Part shown: positions 2,756 through 29,210 of the stretch, piece after piece | How the letters are laid out: every line of letters starts with the position of its first letter | Position numbering within the stretch: position 1 is the stretch's first letter | From: Favolaschia claudopus | Taxonomy: Eukaryota > Basidiomycota > Agaricomycetes > Agaricales > Mycenaceae | Direction of reading: 5' to 3' | Length of the DNA stretch: 64,000 nt | Assembly: GCA_037176885.1 (NCBI GenBank) | Contig: JAWWNJ010000024.1 | Span: forward strand, 1,054,001-1,118,000 | Notes under the pieces: model-generated | What the model was told of the DNA's origin: nothing | Databases searched by the model: none | What the model saw: only the letters and a program-made list of their open reading frames with translations | Program-made: the position numbers and the translations under genes

Positions 2756-2762
2756 CTATATA
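2756..2762 (+). promoter_or_regulatory. TATA-like element upstream of the RNase H1-N-like gene
   Basis: TATATAG lies about 70 bp upstream of the ATG at 2832, at a spacing common for fungal TATA promoters. No other TATA-like string is closer to that start. Inferred from sequence and position only. Confidence 0.4.
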
Positions 2763-2831
2763 GATCCAATCTCTTGTCCAAAACAAGACGACACTTTACT
2801 TGCCTCAATTCTTTCCCCCCCTCCTCCTGCA

Positions 2832-9412: not shown

Positions 9413-9882
9413 AGCAGAGAGAGGTTAACGATGTCGAGCAGTGGGTTGGTGGAGAAGGAGCGAACAAAAGTCGACAAAGTGGGGGTTTTTTTGGGGGAGA
9501 AAGGAAGTGGGGCTGAGGATTTGGTGTCGAGTGTGCTTAAGTGAAAACAAGACGGAAAAGCCGATGCCCCATTAAGGAAGCTGAATCGGGAAGGATATCG
9601 GGCGACATAGAAACTGACCCTGCTGTCGGTTTCGGTTAGGCGGTTGGCGAATTCCGGATTCTGATTTGGGATATCCCAGATTGGCCGCTGCGTTACGTGG
9701 TTGAGGCCTTGAGCCGGGTCAGCGCAAGCTGGGTCGTTTACTTCTTGCTGGGTCGTCTACATCTTTGAAAAAACTATAAGAGGGGGGTCAGACGTTGACG
9801 AATCTCAGCTCACTTGTTTTTTGTGGACTTCAATCGCTCGCATTCTTCCCCGCTTCGCTCGTCTACGTTTCTCAGCACCATC
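9413..9882. promoter_or_regulatory. Bidirectional promoter region
   Basis: 470 bp between two divergent starts (9412 minus and 9883 plus). A TATA-like CTATAAG at about 9773-9779 lies roughly 105 bp upstream of the plus start. The rest contains no open frame of note. Inferred from gene arrangement. Confidence 0.45.
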
Positions 9883-10827
9883 ATGACCGACACCACCATG
9901 TCCGACAGCTCCATGCTCGACGCCAACATGACCGACGCCGTCAAGACCGCCCAGGTCAAGACCGAAAATGTCGAGACCGCCAATGTCAAGAACGGCAAAG
10001 TCAAGACCGGCAATGGCCAGCCCGGCGACGGCGGTGACCCCGGCAACGGCGGTGAAGGTGAAGGTGAAGGGCCAGAGGAAGACCGTAGGTCACTTGCTTA
10101 TTTTGCGCTCCTTCCGTCTGACCGCGTCCCCTTCCCAGCTAATCTCAAAAAGGCCTTGAGTTATGAGGTCTATGGTACCAGCGTAATTTCTGGCCTCCCT
10201 CCGTACGTGGTCCCTTTGTTTTGAAGTCTCTTGTGCTGACGACGCGATATAGTGTCCAGAAGGAGCGGTTGGTTGGCGGCTGGCGTCGTAGGCACCTCGA
10301 GGAGGAGGGTCCGGAGCGAACGAACGCCGAGGACGATGAGGAGGTCCACGCTAGGACCAGAACCTCCTACGACATCTCCTGCCAGTACCTCAAGAACGCC
10401 CACGCCATGGCGCTTTACCAAGCGGAAGAGCGCGCTGAGGACTTGAATTTGTGAGTCTTCATCTAGTTTAAGGAACGACAATATGACTCACGACGCCTAG
10501 CGACACCGACTCGGACGACGACGGCAGCATCCACGCTCGCGAGGAGCTCAAACCAGAGGACATCATTATCTGGGACGGGACGAACCCGACCCAGACTGCC
10601 CACACCACGGACGCCGGTGCCGTCGCCGACAGGGCTGTCGCAAAGGACGTGGAGGTTGACAGCGACGACGACAGTCAGGCGGGCACCACAATGGCGATGC
10701 GGTCTGTGCTCAGGTAAGCGCGAATTTCCTGGCGTTCATGTTAAAGCTGACTTTGGACCTACCAGCAATAGCAACGCGGACAATGGGTTCTTCAACTTCG
10801 TCCCCGCGTCCATGCTCGCCGCCGCGG
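9883..10827 (+). pseudogene. 5' part of a host gene interrupted by the LTR retrotransposon
   Basis: Start ATG at 9883. Exons 9883-10084, 10139-10202, 10253-10450, 10501-10713 and 10766-10827 join in one frame through GT-AG introns, giving about 246 codons before the retrotransposon. The N-terminus is Thr/Asp/Lys-rich with repeats of (V)KT and NVxT, followed by a Gly/Glu stretch (GGEGEGEGPEED). A helical region around YDISCQYLKNAHAMAL follows, then an Asp-rich segment. The last exon reads NFVPASMLAAA and is cut at 10827, where the LTR begins and supplies an early stop. The frame resumes at 28818. I do not recognise the family. It was probably intact until this insertion, because both halves keep open frames and usable splice sites. 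Confidence 0.72.
10824..10827 (+). repeat. Target-site duplication GCGG, left copy
   Basis: GCGG directly before the left LTR (TGAAACG) equals GCGG directly after the right LTR at 28818-28821. The uninterrupted target would have read GCCGCCGCGGCTGAAG, so the element sits inside a CCGCGG hexamer. The duplication is 4 bp; the fifth base differs on each side. Confidence 0.85.
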
Positions 10828-12664
10828 TGAAACGCTGCACTTGAATATATCGATATGAGATGCAAAGTGCGCAATGGACTAATCCACTACAAAACACACA
10901 AACAACTCAACCAACACACACAACACTCCAACACTTATATATGTCTCAACAAGATACACCAAGTGCTTCCTATTGAGTTCGTGGGGTCCAATCCGAAATC
11001 CAGATGTAGTTCAACTTCGTCTACTGGTCTGAACTGACGCAAAACAAGTTCTTTACTGACTATAGTTTAGAGGAAATCCGTCCGCGGACTTTCCAATGAA
11101 CAAGGTATATCGGTTTTTAGGATACAAGACTGGGAGGAACTCCAACAGTCAGGGCGAATTGAATATATTAGACACCAGCCAATTGCTAGAAATGCCTCGT
11201 ACACACACTTCTTACAGTGCCACTGCTACTGTAGACCTGAACTTCCAAGCTCTCAGGTACGTTTGACACTCCTTTATATAGCACAAGCTCCAAGGCACTA
11301 ATCGTATCCCGTCAGGTTACGTGCAGGCAAGTCTGAACACGATGCGTCCGCGGATAGATCGTCTACTCTCTTCGACTTGGGGAGATACTAGTTCACTCTT
11401 AAGCACACTTTCACTTCAACTGATTCTGAGTAGTCCGCGGGTTAAGTGGACCAGTCAAACACAACACTGGTAAATGGGGGCGAGCAATGCTCAAACGGGC
11501 CAAGTCCTTGGAAGGTTACTGGGTTGGCTATGCCACGACAAAACTCCACAGTCCAAAGTTTCCGCGGGTGAACGCTTCTAGAAACTTAAGTCTTAATTCA
11601 CACTTGTCTGAACTTCAACAATTCGTTCCTAATGAAGACAAAAACTAGCAAGCAGATAACTCCAATTTAAATGCCTCTACGTCCCTGCCTGAGTACACCA
11701 ACGCCGTCAATGACCTGCGCGCGATGAACTACACAAACGACGAGAAATACATGGTCTTTTATACTAATGCCAAGAAAATACATGATGTAAACAAATCTGA
11801 GTCAAGATACAGAAACAATTGAGTTGGGATTGGGTATACGTAGATCTAGCAGCCGTCTGCCGCTCTGAATCGTCACGATCCGTCCAGGAAAAGTCATCTA
11901 TTCTGACCATCTCACGGTTGAATCACTATCTTGGTCATCCGCGGATGTGTATCACTGTTCCGCTCCGACGTGTCTCCCCGGCATCCATGTAGATCCTCTA
12001 AATCATATGGTTGCTCCACTCCGTCTAGACCGTTCTAGATCTCTAGTTCTGTTTCCAGACCATCAGATCACCGTCTAAGACATTCCTATGCTTCAGTGTC
12101 AAACTATCTCATCAGCGGCATACAGGAAAGTGCTTCCGTGATGTACATGCCGAGTCCGCGGAGTATGCTCCGTGACATGATGGATGTCCGCAATCACTGT
12201 TCCAGATCTGAGGCATCACCCTGCCATTGATCCAACGTCCGGCACCCTTATGTTCAAGGTACATTGGTGCGGCAACTTGTCTGTAAGTCTTCGGCAGGTC
12301 CGCGGCGTCTATGTATCTCATAGACCTTTCGTTTGGATACTCCGCGGGCCTTCCTCCGACATTCCGTCTTGCCTTACTACAAGTCCAGACTGCACTTCAA
12401 CTCAGTCTTCATCTGTTACTCTTGCAATACCCAAAACCTTGGGTTACTCCGTGTGCCGCGGGCCTCTATGATTATCTCCAGTAACGTTACGACCAGCAGC
12501 TCGGAGCTCACTCTGATCCTCCTTCAAGTCACCATGAACAGGAGTACTGACTTCCTATTGATAGTCGAGTAAAGCCCTTAGTGCCATGCGGCTAATATGG
12601 GTATTTGTGCCACAAGTCACTACAAAAGCTAGATAAATACGCGCAAAATTGACCACGCGTATCA
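10828..12664 (-). repeat. 3' LTR of the retrotransposon
   Basis: 1,837 bp, identical by eye to 26981-28817 (constant offset 16,153; the short open frames in each copy have the same translations). Unusually long for a fungal Ty3 LTR. It contains nine CCGCGG palindromes (11082, 11348, 11435, 11562, 11939, 12156, 12300, 12342, 12456). The ends are TG and CA. Its first bases provide the premature TGA that now ends the interrupted host gene. Confidence 0.95.
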
Positions 12665-12674
12665 TCTCCCCTTC
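12665..12674 (-). other. Polypurine tract of the retrotransposon
   Basis: On the minus strand GAAGGGGAGA sits immediately before the TG that begins the 3' LTR. This is the expected position for the primer of plus-strand DNA synthesis. Confidence 0.8.
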
Positions 12675-13504
12675 ACTAAATCTAGACCGTCCTCGGTCTA
12701 CCATTTGTAGCCCTCAGTGTACTAGATATTGAGTGGTCCGCGGACTGACTGCGTCCAGCTAGACGTTCTAATTTTATAGCGCCTACACACATGCACACTT
12801 TTTCACCGTCTACTGGTTTTGAATCCGCAAGCAGAATTCAACCAAGTCCGTTGGTCTCAACTTGCGCTCAGCAAAATCTATTTTTAGATAATTGCCTCCG
12901 CGGACGTCGATCATTACGTAATTGACACTTTCTGTCTGACTTTTATCAGGACAGGGGTGTACACTCTGTCTGCACTCCTCCGCTCATTTCTCGGTAGAGT
13001 CCCAATTTTTCTTTGGCTAACCCTAACCCTACGCTCGCGATTACTCGCTTGGACCACTCGCTGACCCTCAAAACCCTCAACCCTAGGTCTGGTCCTCCAT
13101 TTAATCGGTTTTTACCGACGCAATATAATTGATTTCTTCTATCAAAAACAAAGTTTTTCAAGGTTCACTGCGGAGAACCTCTTCTAAACCTTGCTAAAAA
13201 TAGCGGGCTTCTAGGTTCCCTTATCGAGACTCCGATAAGATCTCAATATATTCGTGGCCGCGGCGTCCAGGACTTCCAGGAAATTTTCCTAAGTCCGCTT
13301 CGTCATATATACCTGTGGGGTGCTCCTTGGCGCCCACTTGCTCTTTCCCTCTTACTACCACCACCCACATAAAGTGCTTTGCACTGTGTGGCCGTCTTCT
13401 TGGCTGCTTCTTGGTTTCTTGTGCTCCCGTTGTCCGACGCCCACGTCGTTCAACTCCCACCGTCTTCAACCAACTGCTCTCCCTGGCGCTCGTCGTCGGT
13501 GGAG
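12675..13504. other. Non-coding part of the element upstream of accessory gene A
   Basis: About 830 bp with three CCGCGG sites (12738, 12898, 13258) and a telomere-like CTAACCCTAACCCTA near 13018. It lies between the 3' LTR and the plus-strand gene starting at 13505, so it should contain that gene's promoter. No open frame with recognisable content. Confidence 0.5.
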
Positions 13505-15284
13505 ATGCCGCCGTCGTCTCCCAAGAAAACCGTTCGCAATCGCGCCGGACCGCCGCCGCCGTACTCATCTCCAGCACCCCAAGCGCCGCCACCAGCGCCG
13601 CCGCCAGCGCCGCCGCCCGCTCCAGTTCCGGTTGATACTCGCATGAATCCTCTTCTGTCACCGGCTGGTCTGCGCTTGGCTGCTATGCCTTCATCGTTAG
13701 CTGCCTCTGATCCCCGTGCTCCGTTCTGGGCACCATTTGACAACAAACGCTCTCGTGCCTTCCTCGAACTCGAGTACCTGGACCCGGAGCCTTCTCTCGA
13801 AATTCAGTTGAAGCGAGCCAAAAAGTTTGCTCCCATCTTGGTATGTTTCTTTCTGTTCTCATTTCCATATTTTGACTAACCGTGTTGTATTTCTACAGCA
13901 AGGTTACCGTGAACGCGAAGAAATCCCCGACGAGGTCGAACTCTTTCTTTGGACAACCGCTCGCCTCCTCAAGTGCCTTCACGAAGGGCTCGTCTCCTCC
14001 AAAATGGAAGCTCCTGAACTCCTCCTCGACGCTTACCGTGCCGGCCGCCCCGCCCTTGCCTTCCGTAAGAAGTACAATATCGACAAAGGCGCGGACATCG
14101 TTTCGCCGGACTTTCGCCTTCCCCACATTCTCAAGGCGCCCGCTCGTGCTAAATTCGTCGCGGACTCCGATGTCGAAGCTGACCTAGGCGCGTCAGTTTC
14201 CGTCGTCGAGCCGACGGTGCCCCAGAAACGTCGTCGCGTTGAGGTGGATTCCCCTCCGCGTGCCGACCCTGCTGCACCGGACCCGCGAATCATCGAGGTG
14301 TCGTCCCGCGGTGAAATCACCGATGCTTTGTTTTCCATTCCCGAGGCGGGCGCGCCGACTCCCGCGCTGATGCGCATCCCGCATCATTACGTCACAGACG
14401 CCCTTAACCCGCCACTGTATAATCCCGAGGCGCTTCCTTGCACCGAGTGTGCTTTCAACTTCATTACTTGTCCCGGCATCGACCGCTCTACTCGGTCTTC
14501 TTCTTGCATTCGCTGCGCGACTCGCAAGGAGAAGTGCTCGTTCAACTGGTCGCCCGCCGAACTGATGAAGTTCTTCGAGCATATTCGTCCCTATCACAAC
14601 GTTGCTCCGCATTCTTTGGCTTCCTTTTTGCAGCGCCTATACCAGACGACCGTGGATGCTGAGTACACCGCGCTCCTCCACGCCCGTTCTCTTAGTGCGC
14701 AACGTTTGGCTGCCCAAGACGTCGCTGTGACTATTCGCAACTCGGACTCCGCCATGGTCGCTGCTGCTTTCAACAGCGTTTTTGAAGACTCCTCGGACGG
14801 CGATCGCATGCGCGACATCGCGGAAAAGTACTTCAAGAACGTTTTGGAGCAGTCTGCTATTGACGACGCTATAGCGGACCATCCTACTTCAGCTGTGGTT
14901 CCTCCGCCTGATGACGCGCCGCCTGGTACTCGTGGGACATATGCTCCCTTGCTCTCCAATCGTATCGTACCTGCGCCATCGTTTGGCCGTGTTGACTCTT
15001 CCCTGGCTCCGGGCACCCTTCCTCGGCCTTTGGCAAATCCCGACTTTCAGCTGTCGTCGTCGGTCGATTTTTCAAAGGTTGGTCCTTCCAGCGTCCCCTT
15101 GTCGCAAGATACTGCCGCGATCTTTGCGTCTGCTCCGTCGGACAAACCTCCGTTTGGTCCAACTGGAGTGGCCATCGCGTCTGACAAGGGAAAGCGCCCG
15201 GAGTTCGAAGAGGGCTCCAGCACCGGTGGGATGCAGCTGCGCCGTTCCACGCGCCATCAAGAGTCGGACTCTGATTCGTCGTGA
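13505..15284 (+). CDS. Retrotransposon accessory gene A: proline-rich protein with a Zn2Cys6-like cluster
   Basis: Two exons, 13505-13840 and 13899-15284, give about 573 residues. It starts MPPSSPKKTVRNRAG with a Pro/Ala-rich segment (APPPAPPPAPPPAPVPV) and continues with a helical region. A basic patch QKRRR is followed, near residues 293-325, by CX2CX6CX11CX2CX6C (CTEC ... CIRC-ATRKEK-C). That spacing fits the fungal Zn2Cys6 binuclear cluster, although the usual basic loop follows the fourth and fifth Cys rather than the second. Long helical and Ser/Pro-rich C-terminal regions end in RRSTRHQESDSDSS. It is antisense to gag-pol and lies fully inside the element. Similar cysteine-cluster proteins recur in Agaricomycete genomes with no assigned role. 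DNA or RNA binding is inferred. Confidence 0.78.
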
Positions 15285-16327
15285 ACTATTGGACTATCTT
15301 TATTTACATACAATGATCTGCTCGTCATGCTGTAGGCTTCAGCGTTGAAACAAGCCAAAAATATTGTATATATAGTGGTCCCTGGTCGTTTACATAGTTT
15401 ACCCATCTTAGGTAGAATTTTCTGTAAACATGTAACGACCCATAAATGCATTAGCGCCCAAGGCGCCCCATTGTTGTACTTGATTCAACCGTGTGAACCT
15501 TTTTCCTTATGAGAGATGCCTTAGCGCCCATTTTCGCGCCAACGTTAGCGCCTATTTTAGCGCCTGGGTCTCTCGGACTCCGGTAACTCTTTCCTACCGG
15601 CCGATCAACGGATCCATCAAACATGATCCGATCACGGTGATTTCCGCTACTCAACTTTTTCAACCAAGTGCGAATTTCACCAAGTCCTAACCGCTCCTAT
15701 AATCCAAATTGAGTCATCATATGTCGATCTTCAATTCAAATTATTGGTTTCATAGCAGAAAGACTTCCACTTCTTAACTCTTTGCATGATTCTGCTCCGC
15801 GGAGATTCAACTTCAACATTTATTCAAGTGATGAAGTCTCATTGACTCCTCAATTTCCTGCTAGCTCTTGCTACTTTATTTTTCTGGTGAACTCCGGGGA
15901 CGTGCCGTCTGACGCGTCTCCGCGGCTCCCCATCAATCAGTGTCGCAAGTCACTGCATGTAGAAACCGATCATCAATATCCTCCCAATCAGGATTCCATG
16001 ACTTCCGATTTTGAAAACATCGGCCTCAATCGCCTATTCTTGGTGAAACAAATTTCTCCAAGCCTAGATATGGTAACAGACGCATGGACGCGCGGACGGC
16101 ACACCGCTCATTCCGTGTCTTGGCTCCCTCTCTCCCCCCAACTAAAATAAAACATGCGTCCTCGCATGCAGTTATATCAGCGAAAGAATTGAGTTGCCAT
16201 GCGTCTTGGCGTGTTCCAACGATTTGCGCCTTTGTAACCAAGTTATCGTAACTCCCCAGACCTTTTGCACATAAAAGCTAGAGGTCCGCTCCGCTAAACT
16301 TCGTCTCGTTCTGACCACTTCCATGCA
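15285..16327. other. Spacer between accessory genes A and B
   Basis: About 1.04 kb of AT-richer DNA with repeated short phrases such as TTAGCGCC (15449-15560). It has two CCGCGG sites (15797, 15920). It should carry the terminator of gene A and the promoter of gene B. The frame at 15782-16150 shows no domain. Confidence 0.45.
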
Positions 16328-18027
16328 ATGGCGCCTGACCGCCACCCTCCGCCTGCACTCCAGACAGCAATCCAAGGCATTCAAGCGGCTCACACTGAAT
16401 ATCGTGGTCTCCGAAAGGCGAAATTCTCGGATGCGATCTGCAACAGAGCGCTCGACACGGTGCTCGACCGCGTCGTACGTCCGCTATACTCTGCTACTCA
16501 CTACTATGCTGACCCGCGGGGTTTCTTCCAGACCGGATTTCTCCCAATGGCCTCCGCGCTCCAGCACCCCCAGAATGCTACCGTCACCCAGATCATTCTA
16601 GGACTCCCTGACCAGCTTCAACTTGCTGTCAACGAGCACGGCTTCCGCATTCCTAGCAGCCACAACGTTACGCTCAACCAGTTGATCAACCGCTACCACA
16701 ATGCTAAGAAGAAAAAGAAGAAGGACGAAAAGGCCAAGGTGTGCCCTCGTTAATTTATCCCTCTTTCTTAGCTTCTCTACTGACTTATCCCTTTCAGCAC
16801 AAGTCCAAGGAGGCTGCCGAGGATACCGACGGTGACGACTCCGCGGACGAGGCGTCTGTCGCTGACCAGGTATTCTCTAGGCGTTCTCCACCTTACGATT
16901 CACTTTAATCGTCTACAGATGGACATTGACAAGGAGGAAGGTATGAATATTACTCCCTACTTGCTTGCCGCGTACGGGGCCAATTACCGTGCAGGTTCTG
17001 GCGCGGTCCCCGGAGGTCTTTCGTTCAACAAGACCAACGGTGGCAAGAACAACAAGAAGAATAACTCCCGCGGAACGGTACGCTCCGCTTTATTCTCTCT
17101 TTCCTTGTCCGTCCATCTCATTTCTGGAGCAGATCAACGTGTGTGGGTCTTGCTCGTCGACTCAACACGGAATTGACGCCTGCCCCGTCAAACCCAAGGA
17201 CTCCAAAATCCCCGAGGGTAAGGCGCACAAGAAACGCGATGCGTCAGTTGAAATTGTTGACGATCCGATTCCAGAGGAGATGTTCCAAAACGTTTGTCGC
17301 ACAGTTGTACGCTCCCTCTCCATGCACCCTACTCACTGAAAATTTCTTTTCCTCAGCGCAAGCTCAGAGCTCAGGCCGCTCAAGAGGAACAAGCCTTTCT
17401 CGACCAGGACGACTCAATGGTACGTAATCAACTTCTCACGGTTGAATCCCTCTAATACGCAAGTCGTACTAGGTGGAACCTCCCGCGGGCCTTCAGGCGA
17501 GTCCTATTTTTCGTTATACGACTCCCTTTCACTGATTTCGTCCCCAGTCTCCCGCGGAGATCGCTGATCCTGATGATGCCGCTCGTGGTCGCAAGCGTAC
17601 TCGTCTGGCGGACGCGGCAGTCGATATGCTCCACGAACCCACTTTCCCGAGTACGTTTCAACGTCCTTTACTCCGTTATTCACCTCATTATTCAATAGAT
17701 CTTCATCATGATCTCATTGTCATCACAGACCCTGCGATCATGGACAAAGCGGTTCATAACGCCAATGTCCATGCTGAAGAAATGGATCCCCACGACTTTC
17801 GCTCTCAGTCGGAGTTTCTTCGCCACAGCATGCGCTCCGCGGCCTTCAAGTTTCGCTTCTGGTTGTCGGAATACAATAAGTACGACGACCATCTCGAGAA
17901 GCTCACACTGGACTTCTACCAGAAGTATCCTGATGACAGGCCTATCCGTCGTCCGCACAGCGCGCATGGTGTACGCAAATTCTTCTTTGCGCACTGGTCT
18001 CAGCTTAACGCGCCCTCGCAGCCTTAA
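16328..18027 (+). CDS. Retrotransposon accessory gene B: multi-exon protein with a CCHC zinc knuckle
   Basis: ATG at 16328 (MAPDRHPPPALQ). Nine exons read in frame: 16328-16738, 16798-16869, 16919-16940, 16995-17077, 17133-17306, 17357-17419, 17473-17496, 17548-17650 and 17729-18027. One donor is GC (17497). The N-terminal ~135 residues form a helical domain ending in a KKKKKKDEKAK tail. An acidic and Asn/Lys-rich linker leads to CGSCSSTQHGIDAC (CX2CX4HX4C), the retroviral-type zinc knuckle. The C-terminal domain (MDPHDFRSQSEFLRHSMRSA) is unknown. The helical domain plus knuckle resembles a Gag nucleocapsid arrangement. A nucleic-acid-binding role for the element is plausible but inferred. 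Each of the later small exons could be placed slightly differently. Confidence 0.7.
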
Positions 18028-18702
18028 ATCCCTTGCTAGGATTATATAGCTACAAGTTTCCGTTTTTATATTCGTGTCTTCAACAGACACATGTGTCTTC
18101 AACAGACACACTTCCGCTGCTCAACCAGCAACCACAGTCTCTATCAGCCCGGGCGTATCGTATTTCAGTAGTGCTCGCAATACAATTGTTTTGTCAAGCC
18201 ATCCCTGTGTGATTTCCCTTGCTTTCTTCAATTCTGAGAGTGAAACTCCGCTCCGCGGGGCGCCAAATCTACGTCTCTGACTTTGAACAACCTCTCATTT
18301 CTTCGTCAAAAGAGCCGCAGGAGCCTTAGCGTCTTAGCCTTCAGTTGCTTACGCTGGTTGATTCCCTACATACTCCAATTCGGAATTAATGATGGCCATA
18401 TCATCGACTTCAACTGACACTCCGTTCCAGGCTTATCTGTTTCCTTCTCCGCAACGCTTGTCGTTCGTAGTGAGGGGTCCGCGGGCCTCAATTTCTCTAC
18501 AAATTGGGTTTCTTTCCGCTGGATACCATTCAAATCGCTCCGACGGCACTGCGTTGAACCATTTAAGCTGTGATTGCTCAGTCAACCGATCGCAACTACA
18601 CTCCTGAGTGTCCAAAGTGCTGGGTAATGTCTCAGCAGCCCTGTCTGACTTAAAGACAGCTGCGCGGAGCTTCCAAATCCCAAATACCCCTTCCGCTCTT
18701 TT
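18028..18702. other. Spacer between accessory genes B and C
   Basis: 675 bp with a direct duplication of TTCAACAGACACA (18078-18110) and two CCGCGG sites (18253, 18479). No supported gene. It probably contains the promoter of gene C. Confidence 0.45.
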
Positions 18703-19559
18703 ATGTGCTGCGACCCATACGACGAGGAGAATTTACCACCTGACTACGGCGACTACTACTACTCCACTCCTTCGCCTCATCCTGAGTGGGACGCTCCTTT
18801 CTTCCCCATGGATGAGATAGGCGCTCTTCGTAGCGTTTTTGGCTACAATTACGATGCATCCACCACTAGGGAACCCAAGATTCTGGAGGTCCGTGAACGT
18901 CTCCGCTATACTCTTGCATTCCTTGCGGATAACAAGGTGCGTGTCTGTTCTTCTCCACATCTCGCTCCTTACTCAGGGGAATTCTTCCAGCCTACTGCTG
19001 CTTGTTCTTGCTGCGAAGCGGAGCACGGTTCTAGGACTTGTAATCCTCAGGCTTGGGGCGCTCCTTGCGATACTTGCCTCCGCAAGTTTCGCACTTGCCC
19101 TTTCACCGAGCAGAACAATATGTTCACCGTTTCCACGAGCGCGGTGGCCCTAGTACGTTTCCAAAAATCTCCGCGGGGTTTTATTCATTGCTGAATTCCC
19201 CCCCCAGTTATCATGTTTGGCAACGACAAGTTCCACTTTGGTGAGCTCGCAGAAGAGTTCGACCTCGCTTTCTACTTTCTTCAGCGGGGCATCCGGTATC
19301 GTAAGGAGGGCTTCGTTCAAGCTCTCTCTCAGATCTCAGATGTTCACGAACTCGCCTACCTCCGCAAAGAACTCGACATCAACATGTACGACGACTCTGC
19401 TAAAGAGCTCGTCTTAACTCGCATCACTGAACTCATTCCTCCGGGGATCCATCCCAAGTCCGTGGAATCTCCCGACAAGTACGTCTTCGTTCCATATTTT
19501 CCAAGAAATATACTCATGATTATTTGTTCGGTAGGGGCAAATATGGCCACAACCTTTAA
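18703..19559 (+). CDS. Retrotransposon accessory gene C: short protein with a Zn2Cys6-like cluster
   Basis: The first exon (18703 to about 19152) starts MCCDPYDEENLPPDYGDY and includes a cluster of six cysteines, CX2CX8CX8CX2CX6C (CSCC ... CDTCLRKFRTC). This spacing is close to the Zn2Cys6 range and related to that of gene A. A second exon (about 19208-19481) encodes an acidic helical region beginning MFGNDKFHFGELAEEFD, and a final short exon (about 19534-19559) ends KGKYGHNL. The second junction (GT at 19482, AG at about 19533) is clean. The first needs a weak donor to keep frame, so the model is provisional. Its TAA at 19557-19559 directly abuts the pol TGA at 19560-19562 on the other strand. 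Function inferred only as zinc-dependent binding. Confidence 0.6.
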
Positions 19560-22500
19560 TCACTTTCTATTTCGCCTGGACCTCCGCGGGCCCACTCGTT
19601 CCTGTTCATCATCTAGTCCAAACGACTCTTCCTCCTCGCTTTCAGATTCAGATTGTGAAGATTCTGTATCCTCGAAGTCTTGGGGCGATACCCTGATGTT
19701 GACTTTGTCGAAGGCAATATCATTTAACTTCTTAGACCTTTTATTCTTCTCTTCTGTACCCTCCGCGGGCTCGTCGTTTACTAGTTTTTCCAACGCCTCC
19801 GTAGAGATATCAATGAACTTTTGAATGTTCTTCGGAATTTGGATTCGTTCCCTCGCTAAGTAAGGGACTACCCTTCCTGCAGCGATTCTGTCTTGGAATA
19901 AAGACCCATCCATCTCCGCAAGGATATACGCTCCTCCCTTGGTGCGTCTTATCACAACCATAGGTCCGAGGTACCTTCCTTTCTTTTCCATTTTCGAGTT
20001 CAATGATTTTTCTACCTCCGTGTGTCGCACCAGAACTAAATCTCCCGGCTTAAAGTCATAGCCTTTGATCGCATGCTTATGGTTCCGTTCAAATTTCTGA
20101 ACTGCCAATCGTTTTGCATGGTCAACACGCTCTCTCATATATTCAACATGGGAGACATGCTTGGCTAGAGCTTGCGCACGGTACCCAATGAGCTCCGCGG
20201 TGGTCAACACTCGGTCTGGCAACTCCACTAACCACGTTGCTTCTTCAACATCCAATGGTAATATTGGATGCGCTCCTGTTACCACAAAATATGGTGAACA
20301 CCCCAGACCCTTTCTAACTGTGACTCTGTCGGACCAAAGCATCACGTGGAAGAACCAGAACCATTTGGCTGGGTTCCCTCCAGTCGCCTTGAACAACGCT
20401 TGTCTCATTTGAAAGTGTCCAGACTCAATTTTGCCATTAGCTTGCGAATTATAAGGCGAAATTTGAACATTGGCTATTCCATATTTCTGCCTCAACCACT
20501 CCACGGCTTTCTTGAACTGCCCCGCGTTGTCCGTTACAATCCGCTTTGGGCAACCCCAACGGCAGATAATATCTTCAAACAGGAACATTCCAATTGCCTG
20601 AGCGGAATCCCTTACTAATGGTCTTCCCTCTAACCAGGAACTCAACGAGTCCCTTGCATCAACCACAAGTCCGCATTTATTTGAGACTTGTCCCATCACC
20701 ATCACGTCGGTATGGATTACTTGGAAAAGACTTGGTGTATCCGTTACCACAGGCGGGACTTTGATCAAGGTGTGCTGCCTATTTTGGCAAGGTAGGCAAG
20801 TCGCCACATACCAATAAACGTCACACTCCAATCCTGGCCACCAGAATCTCAATGAAATTAACTCCGTAGTGGCATAACTTCCGCGATGACCTAGGCTATC
20901 ATGAGCAGCCTTCATCATAAACATACGGTGTTCCTTGTCAACTACTAATTGATGAGCCATTCCAATCGCTTTTTTATACATCCTCCCCCCTTTCAAAAAG
21001 AAATGTGAGGCAGAGCGGACAAAAGCTCGATATTCTTGGTCGTCATTCATCCCCGCGGGCCTTATTAAAGGGTCCGCTAACCATTCCTTAATCAATGGTA
21101 ACTTCGCGTCTCTCTTTTTCATCCACTCCGTGCGATGCTCTTCATCATACGGCTCACGCTTATCTTTGTTCCACTTCAACTCTAAGTCAGGAATTAATGG
21201 TTCCATCATTAGAATATACTCTGGAACTGATTTTCCATCCGTTTCATAGGCCGCTTGCCTTGCCTTTGCGATGTCTGCCTCCGCGGATGCAGCGAGCATA
21301 CACTCCTCCGCGAAATCTTCAACACTCAACGCTTCAGGCTCCATCAGAAGGTAACCACCCCTTTTATCAATAAGGTGCTTAAACTCTTCAAATTCCAAGG
21401 GCTGTTGCCCGTCTGTTACAACATCTTCATGGTCCTCGGGAGGCTCATTCTGATCATAGCCTTCCTCGGAGTTTTTGAACTGTTCATCCCCGGGAAAAGG
21501 ATCTCTCCTTGACAATCCATCGGGGGCGAACCTTTCGCCAGGAACATGCTTTAACTTAAAATGGAACATGAGAATTTTCTCAATCCAACGGTTTATTGTA
21601 GCATTTGGACCCATTCCAGGATTTTTCAACATGCCCTTGATGTACAACGCATCGGTTTCAACCACAAGCTTCCTTGCTCCGAAAATCCAGTAGTACATGG
21701 CTTCAAGAGCTCTCATCATCCCATACAATTCTCGTTTGGGTTGTGAGTAGTTTGCCTCGGTTTTCCCCAGCGTTATACTCGCAAACCGCGCATAGTACTT
21801 CTTCTTAGGGTCGTCTGGATCAAGCTGGTAGATAATTATACCAATAGCTCGCCAAGACGTATCCACTTGTAATACTATATCTGAAAGCCAATCGTATCTC
21901 AAAGGCTTGAGCGCGGGGCAATCCTTCAACCTCTGCCTAATCCTTGCCTGCGCTTCATCACACTCCGCGGACCACTTAAAGACGATGTCTTTCTTGGTAA
22001 GATCATTGATAGGTGCGACTATGTCTCCGTACCCTTCAATAAAACTCCGCAAGACTCCAACAGTACCCAAGTATGCCTTTACTTGCGTAAAAGTATCGCA
22101 GGGGCCCCAATTGTTTATCACATCAATCCTTTTGGGATCCGGCAGACGTCCGCGGTACGAACATAAATGTCCTACTACCTCAAACTCATCAGCGCAGAGC
22201 ACCAACTTCTTCCCTGAGAACGTTCCACCAGCATAATTCATGCGAGTAACAATACGGTTCAAATTTTGAACATGTTCCCACACAAATCGGCGAATGCCGG
22301 AGTTTTCTGGAATCCGTTCCCAATCTCCATCTCCCGTCTCATACCTCGTTAGACCTCCGCGGACCGGTACGTCGTCTATGTAAGGTATTGTAACATGCGG
22401 AATCTCATCTCTCAAGACATAGGTAACATCATCATGAAAGATAGGAACAGAATTTGTCCAACCCATGGGTAATTTAACTAGCCTCAGCGCACCAAAGGGC

Positions 22501-23713
22501 GTCTGGAACGTAGTATAATCCCTGGAGGATTCTGCGAGATCCCTGTTATCATATCCAACGAACATGTCCAATGCAGCACCACAAGCTCTGCCAGCAAAAT
22601 GCTCTGCTAGTTTCTCAGTACCCGGGGGCACTCCAGAGTGTTGAATGGTTACTTCATTGAGTCTCTCCAACGAATGTACAATCCGTAAAGATTTTCCATC
22701 CTTCTTGATGACAGCAAAAATCGGCGATCTGTAGGACGAGTTCGAAGGTTCATACACGCCGGCATCAATCTTAGCTTTAATGATGCGACAGAACTCATCG
22801 AAATGTCCGGGGGGAATTGGAATTTGTGAGCATACCCAAGGCGTATGAGGCGCCACAGGCATGTCCACGGGCGGAAAGAATTCATGTTTGAATTGTCCGC
22901 GCTCGTCTTCCTCCCAAGCAAAATGCTGATTATGCTCCATCATGAAGTGGTTCAACAATTTCATTTCTTCTGGCAATAAGAAGCCATTATCATGAGTCTT
23001 GTCGAACACTTCCTTCCGCTCCGCGGTATATCTCCCAGTAGGTGCAAACTCTGGAGGATGCGGACTGATCGTCGGCATGTCCTTCAGCGGATCACCAGTG
23101 ATATTCCGCACTATCCTAAACTTCTCATCAACTCGACCTAAAATGGGCCTCACTTTGTCTGCCACGGGCTTATACTTGTTAGCAAACACCCGCTCTGGTT
23201 CAGGCTTGGGGTCAAGCTGCTCCATTACGAACTGCTGCCTGGGCGTATCAGGTACAGGCAAATCTAAGTGAACCACATTCTTAGGCGGTAGTCCGCGGAC
23301 CGGATCAATCGGCTCCTCGGCACCACTTACTGCAACGTTCGTTGACTCCGCCGTCAGAAGAGCCGCCTCCGCGCGCTTAGCCTTACGTTTGGCATTCTTC
23401 TTCTTTCCACGGTTCAACTTTTTCGACCGCTTCTTCGGCTTACTCGGCGGACCGTCCTCTTTAAACAAGAAAATATCCATTCCCTTGTCTTTTTCCATTG
23501 TTCCAGCGTACTGGTTCAACAGAACGGAGGCGTCCTTATCTCCACTAAAACTCTGCTGAGAGGCCATCAAATACGCCATTTGACGGTCTGCCTGCGTCAC
23601 AACATCACCCGACTTAGGAAATCCATAACCAATGCAAATCAACTGCCCCTGCTCATCCAACTCAAACGCTACAGTGGCTTCTCCCCCCTCTACGAGTTCC
23701 TCGAAGACCTCTG
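19560..23713 (-). CDS. pol: Pol polyprotein: reverse transcriptase, RNase H, integrase
   Basis: An uninterrupted frame of about 1,384 codons. Reverse transcriptase has LDMF (motif A) and YIDDVPV (motif C). RNase H shows its acidic residues in QVDTSWRA, KRELYGMM and ETDALYIKG plus HVPGERFAPDGLSR. Integrase has the HHCC zinc domain (HDSLGH ... CLPCQNR) and the D, D, E core (IHTDVMVMG, IVTDNAGQF, NGKIESGHF). A GPY/F-like module follows (GRYLGPMVVIRRTKGGAY), then an acidic Ser/Glu tail ending GPRRSRRNRK. There is no chromodomain, which many fungal Ty3 integrases carry. The frame is -1 relative to pro and opens at the slippery site at 23714-23720. No stop or frameshift is seen, so the enzyme set looks functional. 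Confidence 0.95.
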
Positions 23714-25047
23714 AAAATCCTGTTTGGCTTTAGCAGGTTCAGGTGGTTCAGATTTTCCAGTGTCTCGATTAAATTTACGTCCGCGGGGCACTGTAGGAAA
23801 AGTACTAGTGCGTCCTGTATACGGATCTGTAATTGTAACCTCGACTTCGCCGGACTTTTTGCTTGCGAAAACTGTCTCCGCCAAAATTTCAAAAGGCCTC
23901 CCTAGAAGTACCTCATAGGGAACGCTTGGTAGTATGTGCACCTGAAGGTACATCACAATCCCATTGAAATTGAACGGCACATTTTTCGCCAACCCCATGG
24001 TTGTCTGAGTTTGGTTGTTGGCGGCCACCATATCACAAACGATTTTAGGATCCCATTTCAGACCAAGCTCTTCTGCAAGAGTGGCGTTCATGGACACAAT
24101 TTGTGACCCACTATCTGTAATGGCTTCCACATATTTTCCGTTTATGGTTGGGCGAACACACCGGAGTCCTCCAGAATTCACCGCGGAAGGCACTGAAGGA
24201 ACCTTCACCTTCCTAGGCTCTTTTCCAGCTGGTAACGACTCAAAGTACTGCAATACTGGGTCACCACAGATCACACTTCCTTGCGGAAGGTCCCCGTCCC
24301 CGGAGGTAACTAACTCTGGGTAGGTGTCAAAGTATAATACTGAGACAGTCGCTCCTGACTCGTCAACCGTCACACAAGACGTTTCTTCTTCCCGCACATT
24401 AACTTCTAGTCCTTCATCTTCGTCCGCGGAGCTCTCCTCAGATTCTTCAGAGACTCGTTGAACCATAAAATTCTGGACCCTAGCTGGAATAATCTCGCCT
24501 GAAGTTGTTTTCAAGAAGCGACTCCTATTTTTCCTCTTGCTACCACCTTCTAGTGTACGTCGAAGGTTGTCATTACTATCCAAGAGAGCCCCCAACTTCA
24601 CCGGAATTACAGTATCACGAATGCTCTTGACAATTTCTGCCGTAGCGGCGTCTTTACGCTGCGTGTCCCGCGGCGCTCGAGGCTTTCGCTCAACTGGTCC
24701 TGGCTTAACAGGTTGCTCATCATTGGGTTTCCTGGGTAGTGCAGGTCGAGGCGCGGGGTCAGATAGAGGCTTAACATCTTTGAAGGGAAGTTCCTTCTCT
24801 GTCGCCTTTTTCTTATCCGCTGGCTCGTCCTCGGAGTCGCTGACCTCTTCCACAGTAACTCTAGGTCTCCGCGGGGGATTCCTTCTCTCCATTACAACTT
24901 CAACTCGATTCTCGATCTCAGGCTTCTTGGACTTCTTTCCACTCGAGCGCTCGTCTGACTGTTTTTTTGTATTTTTATCATTTTCTTCACGGTCTTTCGT
25001 CTTTGGTTCCTCAGGAGCCTTCCGTGATCGGGTCTCCCTCACCGGGT
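23690..25047 (-). CDS. pro: Pro: retroviral-type aspartic protease with a long charged N-terminal extension
   Basis: About 450 residues. The first half is highly charged (Lys/Glu/Pro-rich, e.g. KKSKKPEIENRVEVV). The C-terminal part is the retropepsin fold: VEAITDSGSQIVSM carries the catalytic Asp (DSG rather than DTG), and PSVPYEVLLGRPFEIL is the usual later strand and loop. The protein ends QDFQRSSRNS just after the second slippery heptamer. It lies in the -1 frame relative to gag and is presumably made as a Gag-Pro fusion; no ATG at its start is needed. The protease would process the polyprotein in the virus-like particle. Confidence 0.88.
23714..23720 (-). promoter_or_regulatory. Probable -1 frameshift site at the pro/pol junction
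   Basis: Again G GAT TTT, read as Asp-Phe in the pro frame (KQDFQRSS) and leading in -1 into the open pol frame (SEVFEEL). It is the same heptamer as at the gag/pro junction. Confidence 0.6.
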
Positions 25048-26442
25048 AAAATCCCGTCCTCCTTGAAGAATTAGTTGCCTAAGTTCCCCAAGGTTGTTTT
25101 CGAGCCTAGCAATCTGTTCATCCTGCGCGGACTTTCCCGTGTTTCCAGGAGACTCCCGCGGAGTTGAACTTTGCTCTGCGTCTGCCGCGGTAGAACCAGC
25201 CGACGTAAAGAAAACAGCAAAATGATCCTCATGCAGGAAGCTATTATTTCGGTGACTGTAATAGTCGCGCGCTTTGGTCATCGGACTTTTATTGCGTGGT
25301 TCAATAGGAATATTTTTCCCATCGAAGGTCTGAAGTTTCCCATCCTTGGAGAGGGAAAGAATTCCACCCGCTAGGTCCGTCGCACGCTCCTTGCAGTTGC
25401 CAATATAATGATATAGCTCCCAACAGTAATAACACTCATCCCTTCTTGGACGCTTGTCACCAGTGTTATGACTTCTATAATCAGATCTGTCGCCAGACCT
25501 CCCCGGATTGTTGGACGTGCCTTTTTCCAAAGCCTCATGCATTTTGGACATAATCTGTTTCTGGTCCGCGGTGAACTTATCCAGATGTCCAGCAAGTGCT
25601 TGTTCGACATTGTCCTTCACATCCTTGGAGATGCGCTCTTGACTCGCCTGAGTCTCTTTCTCCAGTCTATCAAGACGAGCTTTCAACTTCTCGCCTTCAT
25701 CCTCTTCTGCGCCATACAACACTGTCGCTTTCCGTCTTCCGTCGGATGTGTCTCCAAAGAATATTGAGTCGTTGTTCTTCATAAGAGTCGTCAAAATATC
25801 CTCGAAGTCCGTCCACTCGTACAAATCATCCTGGTGCGTTTGTGGTGCTTTGAACACCTTGCCTGGATTTGCAGTCTCAAACTCCTTTTTGGCACGCTGA
25901 TAGGAACCCAACTCCGTCGGAGACTTGGTTATGATTATTGAACGGAGATCATCTCTGAACGTAGGGTGAATACCCTCAAGAAAATCCCTCGCCAACTCTC
26001 TCTGAGATAACCATTCCCTATCTTGGTTCATGGTTCCTGCGCGTCCGCGGAACTCGCGAATAAAAGTCGACAACTTATTTTCTTCGCCAAGTCTTACAGG
26101 ACGATTCCTCCAGCCTTTAAGCCAGGAGGCCCATCCCGCGCGGGAGCCTTTCTCAACTGCTCGTACTTCTGGATACGAATTAATCACATCCGTCTTCCAA
26201 TCTTCATAAGTTCCAGTTTTATAGGACGACAACGCAGTCCACTCTTTCTGGATCTTACTGTTCGCATAGTGTTGCGCTAGCCACTTTTTGGCTGTATCAC
26301 TAATGTTCCCCTGCTTTTCAAACAGATCCTCAATCCCCGACAAGTACTTGGGCAAATCCCCGGAGTCATCTTCAAACTTCAGGTTATGTCTCCCAAACAA
26401 GTCAGGAATCTTGGTTTTATCTAGTTCGACGTGCTGGGCCAT
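25039..26442 (-). CDS. gag: Gag nucleocapsid protein with a CCHC zinc knuckle
   Basis: I chose the ATG at 26442 (MAQHVELDKTKIPDLFG), the first in a frame that stays open upstream to about 26890 without another ATG. From there the protein is 467 residues. It contains a retrotransposon-gag-like helical region (WASWLKGWRNRPVRLGEE through FLEGIHPTFRDDLRSI), a coiled segment (DRLEKETQASQERISKDV) and a zinc knuckle CYYCWELYHYIGNC (CX2CX4HX4C). It ends GGRDFTR at the TGA at 25039-25041. It would form the particle shell and bind the RNA. If an upstream exon exists, a further ~110 residues of Ser/Arg-rich sequence could be added. Confidence 0.88.
   Translation of the reverse strand: MAQHVELDKTKIPDLFGRHNLKFEDDSGDLPKYLSGIEDLFEKQGNISDTAKKWLAQHYANSKIQKEWTALSSYKTGTYEDWKTDVINSYPEVRAVEKGSRAGWASWLKGWRNRPVRLGEENKLSTFIREFRGRAGTMNQDREWLSQRELARDFLEGIHPTFRDDLRSIIITKSPTELGSYQRAKKEFETANPGKVFKAPQTHQDDLYEWTDFEDILTTLMKNNDSIFFGDTSDGRRKATVLYGAEEDEGEKLKARLDRLEKETQASQERISKDVKDNVEQALAGHLDKFTADQKQIMSKMHEALEKGTSNNPGRSGDRSDYRSHNTGDKRPRRDECYYCWELYHYIGNCKERATDLAGGILSLSKDGKLQTFDGKNIPIEPRNKSPMTKARDYYSHRNNSFLHEDHFAVFFTSAGSTAADAEQSSTPRESPGNTGKSAQDEQIARLENNLGELRQLILQGGRDFTR
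25048..25054 (-). promoter_or_regulatory. Probable -1 frameshift site at the gag/pro junction
   Basis: On the minus strand the heptamer is G GAT TTT, read in the gag frame as Asp-Phe just before the gag stop. Slipping one base back continues in the open pro frame. It differs in one base from G GAU UUA, the known slippery site of the MMTV pro/pol junction. Confidence 0.6.
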
Positions 26443-26960
26443 AGTGTTTTGTTGTAGGGGGTTTTGATTGGCTACTGAGTTCGAAATAGCCTCAAGGTTC
26501 TGATCCAAATGATCAGACTGCTCGCCGTCCGAAGGGATAGCCTGTCCTTGGAAAGGAAACGCTTCTGTCAAGTCTAATTCCTCCGCGGAACTCGCTCTTC
26601 TTCTTCTGCGAACAGGAGATGAACTATACGACCGTCCGGTACTGGAGTTTTTGGTCGTACGGGGTTTTCTGCCAGACGCCGAGGATCCCCAATTTACTGT
26701 CTCTGGTATAAGACTGCTCCTTGAAGTCGACGCTTGAGCGGGTTCTTGTAATGCAACCCTGGCTTGCTCTAGCAAACTCCTTGAACCTGCTCCGGTATTT
26801 AATGGAGACGGGCTACGCTGGTGCTTGCTCTTCCCCGAACTCTTTCGTTTTCGAGGGGCGGAAATGTTGACTGGTTCAACTTTTCCCGGAAAGTCCTTCT
26901 TCTAGACTCTCCCAAACTATAGCAACTTGTTTTGCTTCAACAACCAAGAGACAAATGGAC
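26443..26960 (-). other. Retrotransposon leader between the primer-binding site and the gag start
   Basis: About 520 bp on the minus strand. The gag frame is open through most of it (Ser/Arg-rich) but has no ATG. It has one CCGCGG at 26583. It is expected to hold the 5' leader and packaging signal. No other feature seen. Confidence 0.5.
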
Positions 26961-26978
26961 CCCTCGCGGTGGGCTCCA
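26961..26978 (-). other. Primer-binding site
   Basis: Two bases after the 5' LTR, the minus strand reads TGGAGCCCACCGCGAGGG. Starting with TGG, it is complementary to a tRNA 3' end CCA. I cannot say which tRNA without a tRNA set. Confidence 0.65.
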
Positions 26979-26980
26979 GA

Positions 26981-28817
26981 TGAAACGCTGCACTTGAATA
27001 TATCGATATGAGATGCAAAGTGCGCAATGGACTAATCCACTACAAAACACACAAACAACTCAACCAACACACACAACACTCCAACACTTATATATGTCTC
27101 AACAAGATACACCAAGTGCTTCCTATTGAGTTCGTGGGGTCCAATCCGAAATCCAGATGTAGTTCAACTTCGTCTACTGGTCTGAACTGACGCAAAACAA
27201 GTTCTTTACTGACTATAGTTTAGAGGAAATCCGTCCGCGGACTTTCCAATGAACAAGGTATATCGGTTTTTAGGATACAAGACTGGGAGGAACTCCAACA
27301 GTCAGGGCGAATTGAATATATTAGACACCAGCCAATTGCTAGAAATGCCTCGTACACACACTTCTTACAGTGCCACTGCTACTGTAGACCTGAACTTCCA
27401 AGCTCTCAGGTACGTTTGACACTCCTTTATATAGCACAAGCTCCAAGGCACTAATCGTATCCCGTCAGGTTACGTGCAGGCAAGTCTGAACACGATGCGT
27501 CCGCGGATAGATCGTCTACTCTCTTCGACTTGGGGAGATACTAGTTCACTCTTAAGCACACTTTCACTTCAACTGATTCTGAGTAGTCCGCGGGTTAAGT
27601 GGACCAGTCAAACACAACACTGGTAAATGGGGGCGAGCAATGCTCAAACGGGCCAAGTCCTTGGAAGGTTACTGGGTTGGCTATGCCACGACAAAACTCC
27701 ACAGTCCAAAGTTTCCGCGGGTGAACGCTTCTAGAAACTTAAGTCTTAATTCACACTTGTCTGAACTTCAACAATTCGTTCCTAATGAAGACAAAAACTA
27801 GCAAGCAGATAACTCCAATTTAAATGCCTCTACGTCCCTGCCTGAGTACACCAACGCCGTCAATGACCTGCGCGCGATGAACTACACAAACGACGAGAAA
27901 TACATGGTCTTTTATACTAATGCCAAGAAAATACATGATGTAAACAAATCTGAGTCAAGATACAGAAACAATTGAGTTGGGATTGGGTATACGTAGATCT
28001 AGCAGCCGTCTGCCGCTCTGAATCGTCACGATCCGTCCAGGAAAAGTCATCTATTCTGACCATCTCACGGTTGAATCACTATCTTGGTCATCCGCGGATG
28101 TGTATCACTGTTCCGCTCCGACGTGTCTCCCCGGCATCCATGTAGATCCTCTAAATCATATGGTTGCTCCACTCCGTCTAGACCGTTCTAGATCTCTAGT
28201 TCTGTTTCCAGACCATCAGATCACCGTCTAAGACATTCCTATGCTTCAGTGTCAAACTATCTCATCAGCGGCATACAGGAAAGTGCTTCCGTGATGTACA
28301 TGCCGAGTCCGCGGAGTATGCTCCGTGACATGATGGATGTCCGCAATCACTGTTCCAGATCTGAGGCATCACCCTGCCATTGATCCAACGTCCGGCACCC
28401 TTATGTTCAAGGTACATTGGTGCGGCAACTTGTCTGTAAGTCTTCGGCAGGTCCGCGGCGTCTATGTATCTCATAGACCTTTCGTTTGGATACTCCGCGG
28501 GCCTTCCTCCGACATTCCGTCTTGCCTTACTACAAGTCCAGACTGCACTTCAACTCAGTCTTCATCTGTTACTCTTGCAATACCCAAAACCTTGGGTTAC
28601 TCCGTGTGCCGCGGGCCTCTATGATTATCTCCAGTAACGTTACGACCAGCAGCTCGGAGCTCACTCTGATCCTCCTTCAAGTCACCATGAACAGGAGTAC
28701 TGACTTCCTATTGATAGTCGAGTAAAGCCCTTAGTGCCATGCGGCTAATATGGGTATTTGTGCCACAAGTCACTACAAAAGCTAGATAAATACGCGCAAA
28801 ATTGACCACGCGTATCA
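26981..28817 (-). repeat. 5' LTR of the retrotransposon
   Basis: Right-hand copy of the 1,837-bp LTR. It drives gag-pro-pol toward lower coordinates. It holds the same nine CCGCGG sites shifted by 16,153. The end CACGCGTATCA is followed at once by the second GCGG target copy. Confidence 0.95.
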
Positions 28818-29210
28818 GCGGCTGAAGATCTCGGCTTGGATGACGCCGCCGACAGCGAGCGTAACCCCGAGCGGAGTCCCATCCCGAGCCTCATCTCGTG
28901 CCCACCTAGCCCCACTGGGGATGAGTATCCTGTTAAGGCGGAGGACGGCGAGGGAGCGCCAGCGGCGACTGCAGAGCAGGCGACTGCGCCGCCCGTCCAT
29001 CAAGTGCAGGTGTGTGGATATTGTGTTTTGTCTTCATCCTTGGTGACAGCATTTTAGCTCGTCAACATCTATGGGACGCGGATGGTCCAGTGCGGATGTG
29101 TCGATGGCAAGCACGGAGAGCTTCGTCGTCGTCAAACGTACGCGTTCGAGGCTAGTGACGGGACGGTGGTGATCAAGAAATTCAGGACGATGATTGTTGC
29201 GTTGAACTGA
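28818..29210 (+). pseudogene. 3' part of the interrupted host gene
   Basis: Begins with the second GCGG copy. The exon reads EDLGLDDAADSERNPER through PPVHQVQ to 29009, then an intron to 29057, then the last exon LVNIYGTRMVQCGCVDG to the stop at 29208-29210 (ending FRTMIVALN). Its frame matches the upstream half at 10827 if the element and one GCGG copy are discounted. The C-terminal strand-rich segment with Cys-Gly-Cys is not a domain I can name. Without its promoter this half is probably silent, unless transcribed from the LTR. Confidence 0.7.

Follow-up and report, generated by a model that had tools for sequence, protein, structure and literature searches.

A CGCG-core palindrome that differs between families saturates three families of a Ty3/gypsy-type retrotransposon lineage of Favolaschia claudopus carrying antisense Zn2Cys6-like genes

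We analysed a 64-kb stretch of the Favolaschia claudopus genome (C24:1054001-1118000; 264.6 Mb in 460 contigs), referred to here as the window, which contains at 10828-28817 a long terminal repeat (LTR) retrotransposon that is saturated with the palindrome CCGCGG and carries antisense genes encoding Zn2Cys6-like cysteine clusters. Its gag, pro and pol genes were recognised from open reading frames (ORFs) and Pfam domains and lie on the minus strand. The two LTRs, 10828-12664 (the 3' LTR in the orientation of the element, minus strand, with TG...CA ends and nine CCGCGG) and 26981-28817 (the 5' LTR, minus strand), are identical across 1837 bp, which indicates that the insertion is young. The element is bordered by a GCGG target-site duplication at 10824-10827, inside a host CCGCGG (10822-10827), and at 28818-28821 on the opposite side. 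A putative primer-binding site, TCTGGAGCCCACCGCGAGGGG (26960-26980, minus strand), adjoins the 5' LTR; no tRNA was matched to it, and the identical 21 letters occupy the same place in two related families described below, the C1 family and family b. The gag ORF (25039-26775, minus strand) encodes 578 amino acids with a C-x2-C-x4-H-x4-C knuckle, the pro ORF (23690-25042, minus strand) an aspartic protease (PF13975), and the pol ORF (19560-23660, minus strand) reverse transcriptase (RT), RNase H (RH) and integrase (INT; PF17917, PF17919 and PF17921). All four of these profiles exceeded the cut-off, and PF00078 fell short of it (23.1 bits versus 29.6). The LTRs, the protease and the RT-RH-INT domain order, which is that of Ty3/gypsy, identify the element as a Ty3/gypsy-type LTR retrotransposon. 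Sequences related to its pol bear the genus names Mycena, Armillaria and Lentinula.

Three genes of the opposite strand, A, B and C, occupy 12665-19560 between pol and the 3' LTR. Gene A runs antisense to gag-pol and consists of exon 1 (13505-13840, plus strand; approximate, with the ATG taken from the homologue P0002) and exon 2 with the stop codon (13899-15284, plus strand; acceptor approximate), to which the protein P0001 is 100% identical. Its six-cysteine Zn2Cys6-like cluster (14439-14537, plus strand) has the spacing C-x2-C-x6-C-x11-C-x2-C-x6-C. Gene C (18703-19482, plus strand) has two exons, at about 18703-19191 and 19213-19482, the first of which holds a second Zn2Cys6-like cluster (19003-19098, plus strand) with the spacing C-x2-C-x8-C-x8-C-x2-C-x6-C. 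Gene B, read from the frames at 16328-18024 (plus strand; bounds approximate), probably comprises several exons and includes a CCHC motif, CGSCSSTQHGIDAC (17142-17183, plus strand).

The window contains 59 CCGCGG, of which 53 are dispersed over the element and 6 lie in the remaining 46 kb, and the longer form TCCGCGGA occurs 19 times in the element and once elsewhere; the counts of 53, 6 and 19 are exactly those given in the original prediction for this DNA. With the duplicated LTR taken once (10828-26980), this unique part held 44 CCGCGG against a mean of 3.2 in 300 dinucleotide shuffles (maximum 8), and 15 TCCGCGGA against 0.3 (maximum 3). The shuffled-sequence test that had been proposed for the count thus rules out composition as the main cause. 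The prediction had also held that protein sequence does not explain the hexamer. Synonymous-codon shuffles, 500 per gene, bear this out and exclude protein sequence as the main cause: they gave on average 0.79 CCGCGG in pol (maximum 4), 0.51 in pro (maximum 3) and 0.65 in gag (maximum 3), where the element has 10, 5 and 5, respectively, and in coding regions the hexamer falls in all three frames. Exon 2 of gene A was not enriched in the same kind of shuffle (1 versus 0.90). Long repeats were likewise rejected as the main cause, with the LTR being the sole direct repeat of at least 60 bp between 8000 and 32000; the sites are single and dispersed, at spacings of 29-1491, and also lie inside gag, pro and pol. 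The hexamers that differ from CCGCGG by one mismatch occurred at most 16 times each with both strands pooled. CCG abutted CGG 44 times, each gap of 1-15 bases between the two was seen at most six times, and T or C preceded 73 of the 88 half-sites. The restriction to abutting CCG and CGG and the pyrimidine preference are the form expected for a dimer site composed of two abutting half-sites. The flanks are also asymmetric (11082-26583), with T on the left of 32 of the 44 sites and A on the right of 19, for which we have no explanation. In the host part of the window (1-10827 and 28818-64000), CCGCGG was rarer than expected from shuffles (6 versus 15.2). Genome-wide, TCCGCGGA was found 4423 times and the same pattern read backwards 2551 times. 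CpG is not depleted, the ratio of observed to expected being 1.06 in the host part and 1.01 in the element.

A search with the LTR start returned 100 places, among which 16 other pairs stood at full-length spacing, and ten of these copies were read. All ten carried 50-54 CCGCGG. With the gene A stretch set aside, their identity to the window copy was mostly 95-99%; matching 4-base duplications bounded 8 of the 11 copies, the window copy included. Columns that varied among the copies made up 9 of 306 within site hexamers versus 778 of 14917 elsewhere (one-sided P 0.04). Counted as hexamer cells lost in sister copies, the figures were 17 of 510 for CCGCGG versus 179 of 2050 for other hexamers with two CpGs, a comparison in which the copies are related and the cells not independent. 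Selection on the sites between sister copies therefore points the expected way, but the youth and relatedness of the copies leave the signal weak.

The enrichment extends to a related element, the C1 family, represented by two copies with one LTR in common at C1:23121-54574. Stretches of this family that can be aligned to the window element are 72-86% identical to it, and 42 CCGCGG were counted in 16.2 kb (one LTR plus the internal part) versus 2.96 in shuffles, with only 2 in 15.5 kb of flanking DNA. The check on related elements that had been suggested earlier was thus answered, within this genome, by the sister copies and the C1 family alike. Of the 20 CCGCGG in the parts of the window element aligned to C1, 11 were kept, compared with 45 of 146 other hexamers with two CpGs (one-sided P 0.03). 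More than half of the window sites, 24 of 44, sit in sequence that cannot be aligned to the C1 family at all. These two figures indicate that saturation outlives sequence identity.

A pattern search for RTs of the same pol lineage found 83 places, which we grouped by hand on codon strings into families a, b, b2, c, d and e. Family b, in a copy with identical 1329-bp LTRs and the duplication GCGC (C24:1014480-1028539), turned out to be saturated with a different palindrome: its unique 12.7 kb contained 31 TCGCGA versus 3.54 in shuffles (maximum 10 in 200), and CCGCGG stood at chance level (2 versus 1.92). Its pol held 9 TCGCGA versus 1.19 in synonymous shuffles (maximum 5 in 500), and over all palindromic hexamers the top z in a 5-kb pol stretch was 9.9 versus a 95% null value of 4.2. 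ACGCGT was also raised in family b (10 versus 2). No saturating palindrome emerged in families a (5 kb), c (5 kb of a decayed copy) or d (2.4 kb), all of which stayed below their null maxima, whereas pol stretches of the window element of the same lengths (5 and 2.4 kb) exceeded theirs. In an RT tree from which c and the C1 family were left out, b clustered with a and d to the exclusion of the window element (support 100/99), so that either two gains of saturation or a loss along the way must be assumed. Each saturated family carries one palindrome with a CGCG core, the outer bases of which differ between families; this comes from one genome, with three saturated families, two palindromes, and unsaturated families a, c and d sampled over 2.4-5 kb. 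Two scans of viral contigs for relatives confirmed none.

In each of the three saturated families, an antisense gene encodes a Zn2Cys6-like cysteine cluster. Zn2Cys6 proteins are recognised by the spacing of six cysteines (Zn_clus, PF00172), their loop between the second and third cysteine is normally basic and contacts DNA, and a dimerisation helix follows the cluster. Six proteins identical or related to window gene A are filed under Favolaschia claudopus, and the six cysteines, in the spacing of the Zn2Cys6 family, were invariant in seven rows comprising six gene A proteins and the C1-family gene. Loops of other gene A alleles than that of the window have two or three residues of H and R, as in VSHLRR. 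The antisense gene of family b encodes the cluster CGNCMIRNRKCRRQNGHTRCDACVQSGMSRC with a basic loop, MIRNRK; seven relatives of it were found, six of which are named Zn(2)-C6 by their sources, and P0002 and P0127-P0132 are named by theirs with a Zn(2)-C6 fungal-type domain. An AlphaFold model of a Zn2Cys6-like accessory protein predicted, at low confidence, a helix (303-359) after the cluster (247-279). An antisense homologue lay within 12 kb downstream of the RT in 18 of 19 family-b places and 9 of 10 b2 places, one of the latter having its RT at C8:407738 and the homologue at C8:414219; with two queries and the best candidates scored, none was detected at the RT places of families a (0/26), c (0/13), d (0/10) or e (0/5). 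For this count 60 of 83 and 70 of 86 homologue matches were entered, the remainder being further pieces at the same loci. A second tally, 34 of 36 RT places, was set aside, as its places had been chosen for lying close to hits. Among the matches listed, all 13 pairs of family-b LTR starts that are 9.25-9.46 kb apart (for example C28:322669 and 332067, and C154:121416 and 130872) were seen by eye to enclose the antisense gene and no listed RT motif, and the gene in these short elements was 77-86% identical to that of family b. They are apparently non-autonomous elements that keep the antisense gene.

Gene A and its upstream region form an exchangeable cassette at about 12930-15690 (plus strand; bounds approximate, from 460-base bins), which was 65-85% identical or could not be aligned in eight of the ten sister copies. 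Five divergent alleles had an open exon 2 (C12, C28b, C69, C105b and C227), and their synonymous divergence (dS) was 1.7-2.5 versus 0.05-0.08 in pol. The ratio of nonsynonymous to synonymous divergence (dN/dS) was 0.18-0.25 for these alleles, a rough figure with dS near saturation, and places gene A under purifying selection. Outside the five, C28a matched at 90% of amino acids (dN/dS 0.08), C43 was identical, and C105a, C192 and C42, broken or partly matched, gave no usable comparison. As judged from these sequences, old gene A alleles have been moved into a young backbone. Bins of gene C were 95-100% identical between sister copies, and in comparison with the C1 family only the cluster-bearing part of its exon 1 aligned (44% over 48 residues). 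Gene C, which does not vary from copy to copy, and gene A are equally good candidates for the putative reader of the palindromes in the window family.

We consider it about an even chance that the palindromes are dispersed targets of a DNA-binding protein that acts as a dimer, is sequence-specific and is dedicated to this lineage, most likely the product of the antisense Zn2Cys6-like gene or genes of the element itself. That a reader exists is suggested by the symmetry of the sites, the half-site preference and the change of palindrome from family to family; that the element encodes it is suggested by the Zn2Cys6-like antisense genes and their distribution over the families. A change from one CGCG palindrome to another, as seen in the third family, is the trace to be expected of a dedicated reader that coevolves with its sites. 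Each half-site would be contacted by one subunit, and binding at about 50 sites would coat the whole provirus and mark it as self. Whether for anti-silencing, activation or self-recognition, a function can be proposed only by inference: the likeliest benefit, by analogy with the VANC proteins of VANDAL transposons, would be resistance to silencing by host CpG methylation, or coordinated activation.

Several observations weigh against this reading. The strongest one against gene A as the reader of the window family is that its alleles turn over while the palindromes stay constant: roughly half of the residues differ between alleles, the palindrome count is the same with each of them, and the cassette itself contains just 2-3 sites. 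Window gene A has no basic residue between the second and third cysteines (AFNFIT). Pfam Zn_clus remained below its cut-off of 21 bits in all 15 proteins scanned; the best score was that of the family b exon (15.9 bits), followed by P0127-P0132 (13.1-14.1) and P0003 (10.2), and no match at all was obtained for P0001, P0002, P0004, P0005, P0133, gene C or the C1-family gene. The earlier claim of two accessory genes with Zn2Cys6 spacing consequently stands for the six-cysteine clusters of A and C and falls short at the profile. Both AlphaFold models were poor (mean predicted local distance difference test scores of 47.3 and 44.5). Window gene A and the family b gene aligned through the cluster and beyond in hhalign with an E value of 0.0075 but a probability of 5%; their homology is only suggested, and common descent is not established because of this low probability. 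The evidence from palindromes is limited to two of them in three families. Retention between sister copies was absent in some compartments, with lost-hexamer cells numbering 5 of 180 for sites versus 7 of 340 for other two-CpG hexamers in the LTRs alone, and 5 of 40 versus 10 of 80 in spacers; by column, site CpGs varied in 9 of 204 versus 109 of 1450 (P 0.11). A test of whether protein binding protects neighbouring CpGs against deamination gave no support for this idea, as CpGs beside the sites were not less mutated (3.4% within 25 bases versus 1.5-2.4% farther away). The original prediction of self-encoded binders has therefore been strengthened by the enrichment, the second family, the palindrome switch and the co-occurrence of the gene, and weakened by the missed Zn_clus cut-off, the non-basic loop and the diverged gene A alleles.

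A further-reaching form of the dedicated-reader interpretation, which we put forward tentatively, is a system of self-addressing in which each family writes a private CGCG palindrome over its whole body, genes included, and encodes a matching antisense reader, both change together, the reader persists in non-autonomous elements, and deeply diverged alleles of its gene are swapped as a cassette. Such cassette exchange would be expected if copies of different types were in competition or shut one another out.

A host factor, either a Zn2Cys6 protein or another CGCG-binding regulator, might instead read the palindromes and be exploited by the element, for example for activation, with the accessory genes serving otherwise. 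Yeast Pdr1 and Pdr3 are zinc-cluster proteins of the Zn2Cys6 type. They bind the same octamer, TCCGCGGA, as the consensus drug-response element (PDRE), and their sites are reported in the promoter of a host drug-pump gene (PMC5539612), whereas the sites described here extend over an entire element. A host reader would also agree with the divergence of gene A at a fixed number of sites and with the lack of a canonical DNA-contacting loop in the window allele. However, promoter sites suffice for transcription, so the 20 sites in gag, pro and pol would be unneeded, the host part has fewer CCGCGG than expected, and families within one host use different palindromes, which requires at least two host factors. 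We regard a host reader as doubtful, though deserving of a hearing.

A role in integration is less probable still, and would mean that CGCG palindromes are favoured by the integrase or by a protein working with it, and that the bodies of the elements serve as safe landing sites for sister copies. The 4-bp target duplications do follow a rule across all three families: NCGN was found in 126 of 136 distinct left flanks pooled over the three (window family 29/32, C1 family 51/55, and family b 46/49 among the matches listed) and in 19 of the 20 right flanks listed for the window family; in the host part, 7.3% of positions are CG. Four of the ten left-flank exceptions (three NCAN and one NTGN) could be deaminated CpG. 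These left flanks are the ones in which the 20th base, counted outward, is G or C, drawn for family b from 100 of 109 places; internal LTR ends and repeated or nearly repeated flanks were excluded, and the duplicate loci on C30 and C264, which differ at the target, contributed a single left flank, the one that is not NCGN, and both right flanks. The window copy itself lies inside a host CCGCGG, this hexamer directly precedes 10 LTR ends, at least four of them apparently in sister pol, and the integrase of the Drosophila LTR element ZAM, which likewise inserts at a CG-rich palindrome, binds and targets CGCGCG (PMC2527525). Yet what is required here is the central CpG of the duplication alone, and the internal palindrome varies under the same target rule, both unlike ZAM. 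Left flanks ending in CCGCGG numbered 3 of 32 in the window family, 1 of 55 in C1 and, as read from the list, 0 of 49 in family b, the left flanks of which show no preference for TCGCGA either, 1 of 49 being able to hold the first four bases of TCGCGA in phase. The three in the window family, out of 29 NCGN flanks, compare with 0.05 expected from the host part of the window, an expectation that insertions into saturated elements would raise. We conclude that the lineage targets CpG with at most a mild preference for CCGCGG; the NCGN requirement and the rarity of CCGCGG flanks rule out CCGCGG-specific integration as a general rule, and the earlier idea of integration tethered to CCGCGG gives way to insertion at CpG generally.

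The window-family LTRs at CCGCGG in sister pol were located at C11:2936523, C101:347543, C109:867303 and C115:20432, with C266:20432 a probable fifth. By coordinate reckoning, those LTR ends lie 392 bases from the RT motif, at the pol CCGCGG equivalent to window position 21965, and the four or more nested insertions are apparently one event that was copied.

It is very unlikely that the sites act in RNA, as self-complementary elements for dimerisation, condensation or packaging of the genome. Being self-complementary, as both known palindromes are, such a hexamer would allow pairing between any site of one RNA and any site of another, but the predicted accessibility of the 44 sites in the sense RNA equalled that of shuffled flanks (0.293 versus 0.287, P 0.80), which led us to reject accessibility as the main cause, and the pyrimidine preference is also present in pairs that are unable to extend the pairing, as it would be for a DNA dimer site. 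Composition, mutation bias or spread of repeats without function is scarcely credible, for while CpG is undepleted and ACGCGT is raised in family b, the dinucleotide and synonymous-codon shuffles, the low counts of one-mismatch neighbours and the LTR as sole long direct repeat all stand against it.

VANDALs are Mutator-like DNA transposons. In Arabidopsis their VANC system resembles the one proposed here in that a transposon accessory gene goes with a short motif that is dense in the element's own copies, rare elsewhere and different between related families (PMC5735166). The CCGCGG motif shows the same concentration in its own copies. VANC motifs are described as mainly non-coding tandem repeats in one orientation (PMC5735166), whereas the palindromes of the mushroom LTR retrotransposon are scattered singly through coding sequence and LTRs; motifs in non-coding tandem repeats were not found (Tandem Repeats Finder was not run), and the element is not of the Mutator-like class. 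Binding and hypomethylation have been demonstrated for VANC (PMC5735166); for the mushroom element, a binding protein is proposed. By analogy, VANC/VANDAL would be the closest known system in working principle, and one to which the present element does not belong. Plant Retand elements (Ty3/gypsy) are similar in having antisense genes in a long stretch that separates pol from the 3' LTR, a prediction of DNA binding, and non-autonomous members; tandem repeats occupy this stretch in about half of those studied, and a palindrome spread over the whole element is not described in the excerpt of the source (PMC11963269; see also PMC7264820 for antisense genes in retrotransposons). TRP28 (PF04195), the domain of the Retand antisense genes, was not matched in Pfam scans of the window and the accessory proteins, and searches of PDB sequences gave no match up to E 10.

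No such element was described in the literature surveyed by title and abstract, which leaves most subscription journals outside its coverage, and a text search of the literature found no paper on transposable elements in the Favolaschia claudopus genome. If the reader is encoded by the element, this would be, to our knowledge, the first LTR retrotransposon found to bear a family-specific palindrome as a mark from end to end, in coding and non-coding sequence alike. If the dedicated-reader interpretation is true, self-recognition by a transposon protein without harm to the host could be tested with short probes, and the two families predict two specificities. The CpG-centred target duplication provides a clean insertion rule that is independent of the question of the reader, and the gene A cassette is a case of deep allelic diversity maintained within a young and nearly uniform element family.

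One locus of family e (L036, C78:124149-124664), which has a broken RT, was dropped from the family comparison. Downstream of this RT we observed a dense local cluster of GCCACC/GGTGGC in other sequence, possibly the subterminal repeats of another transposon.

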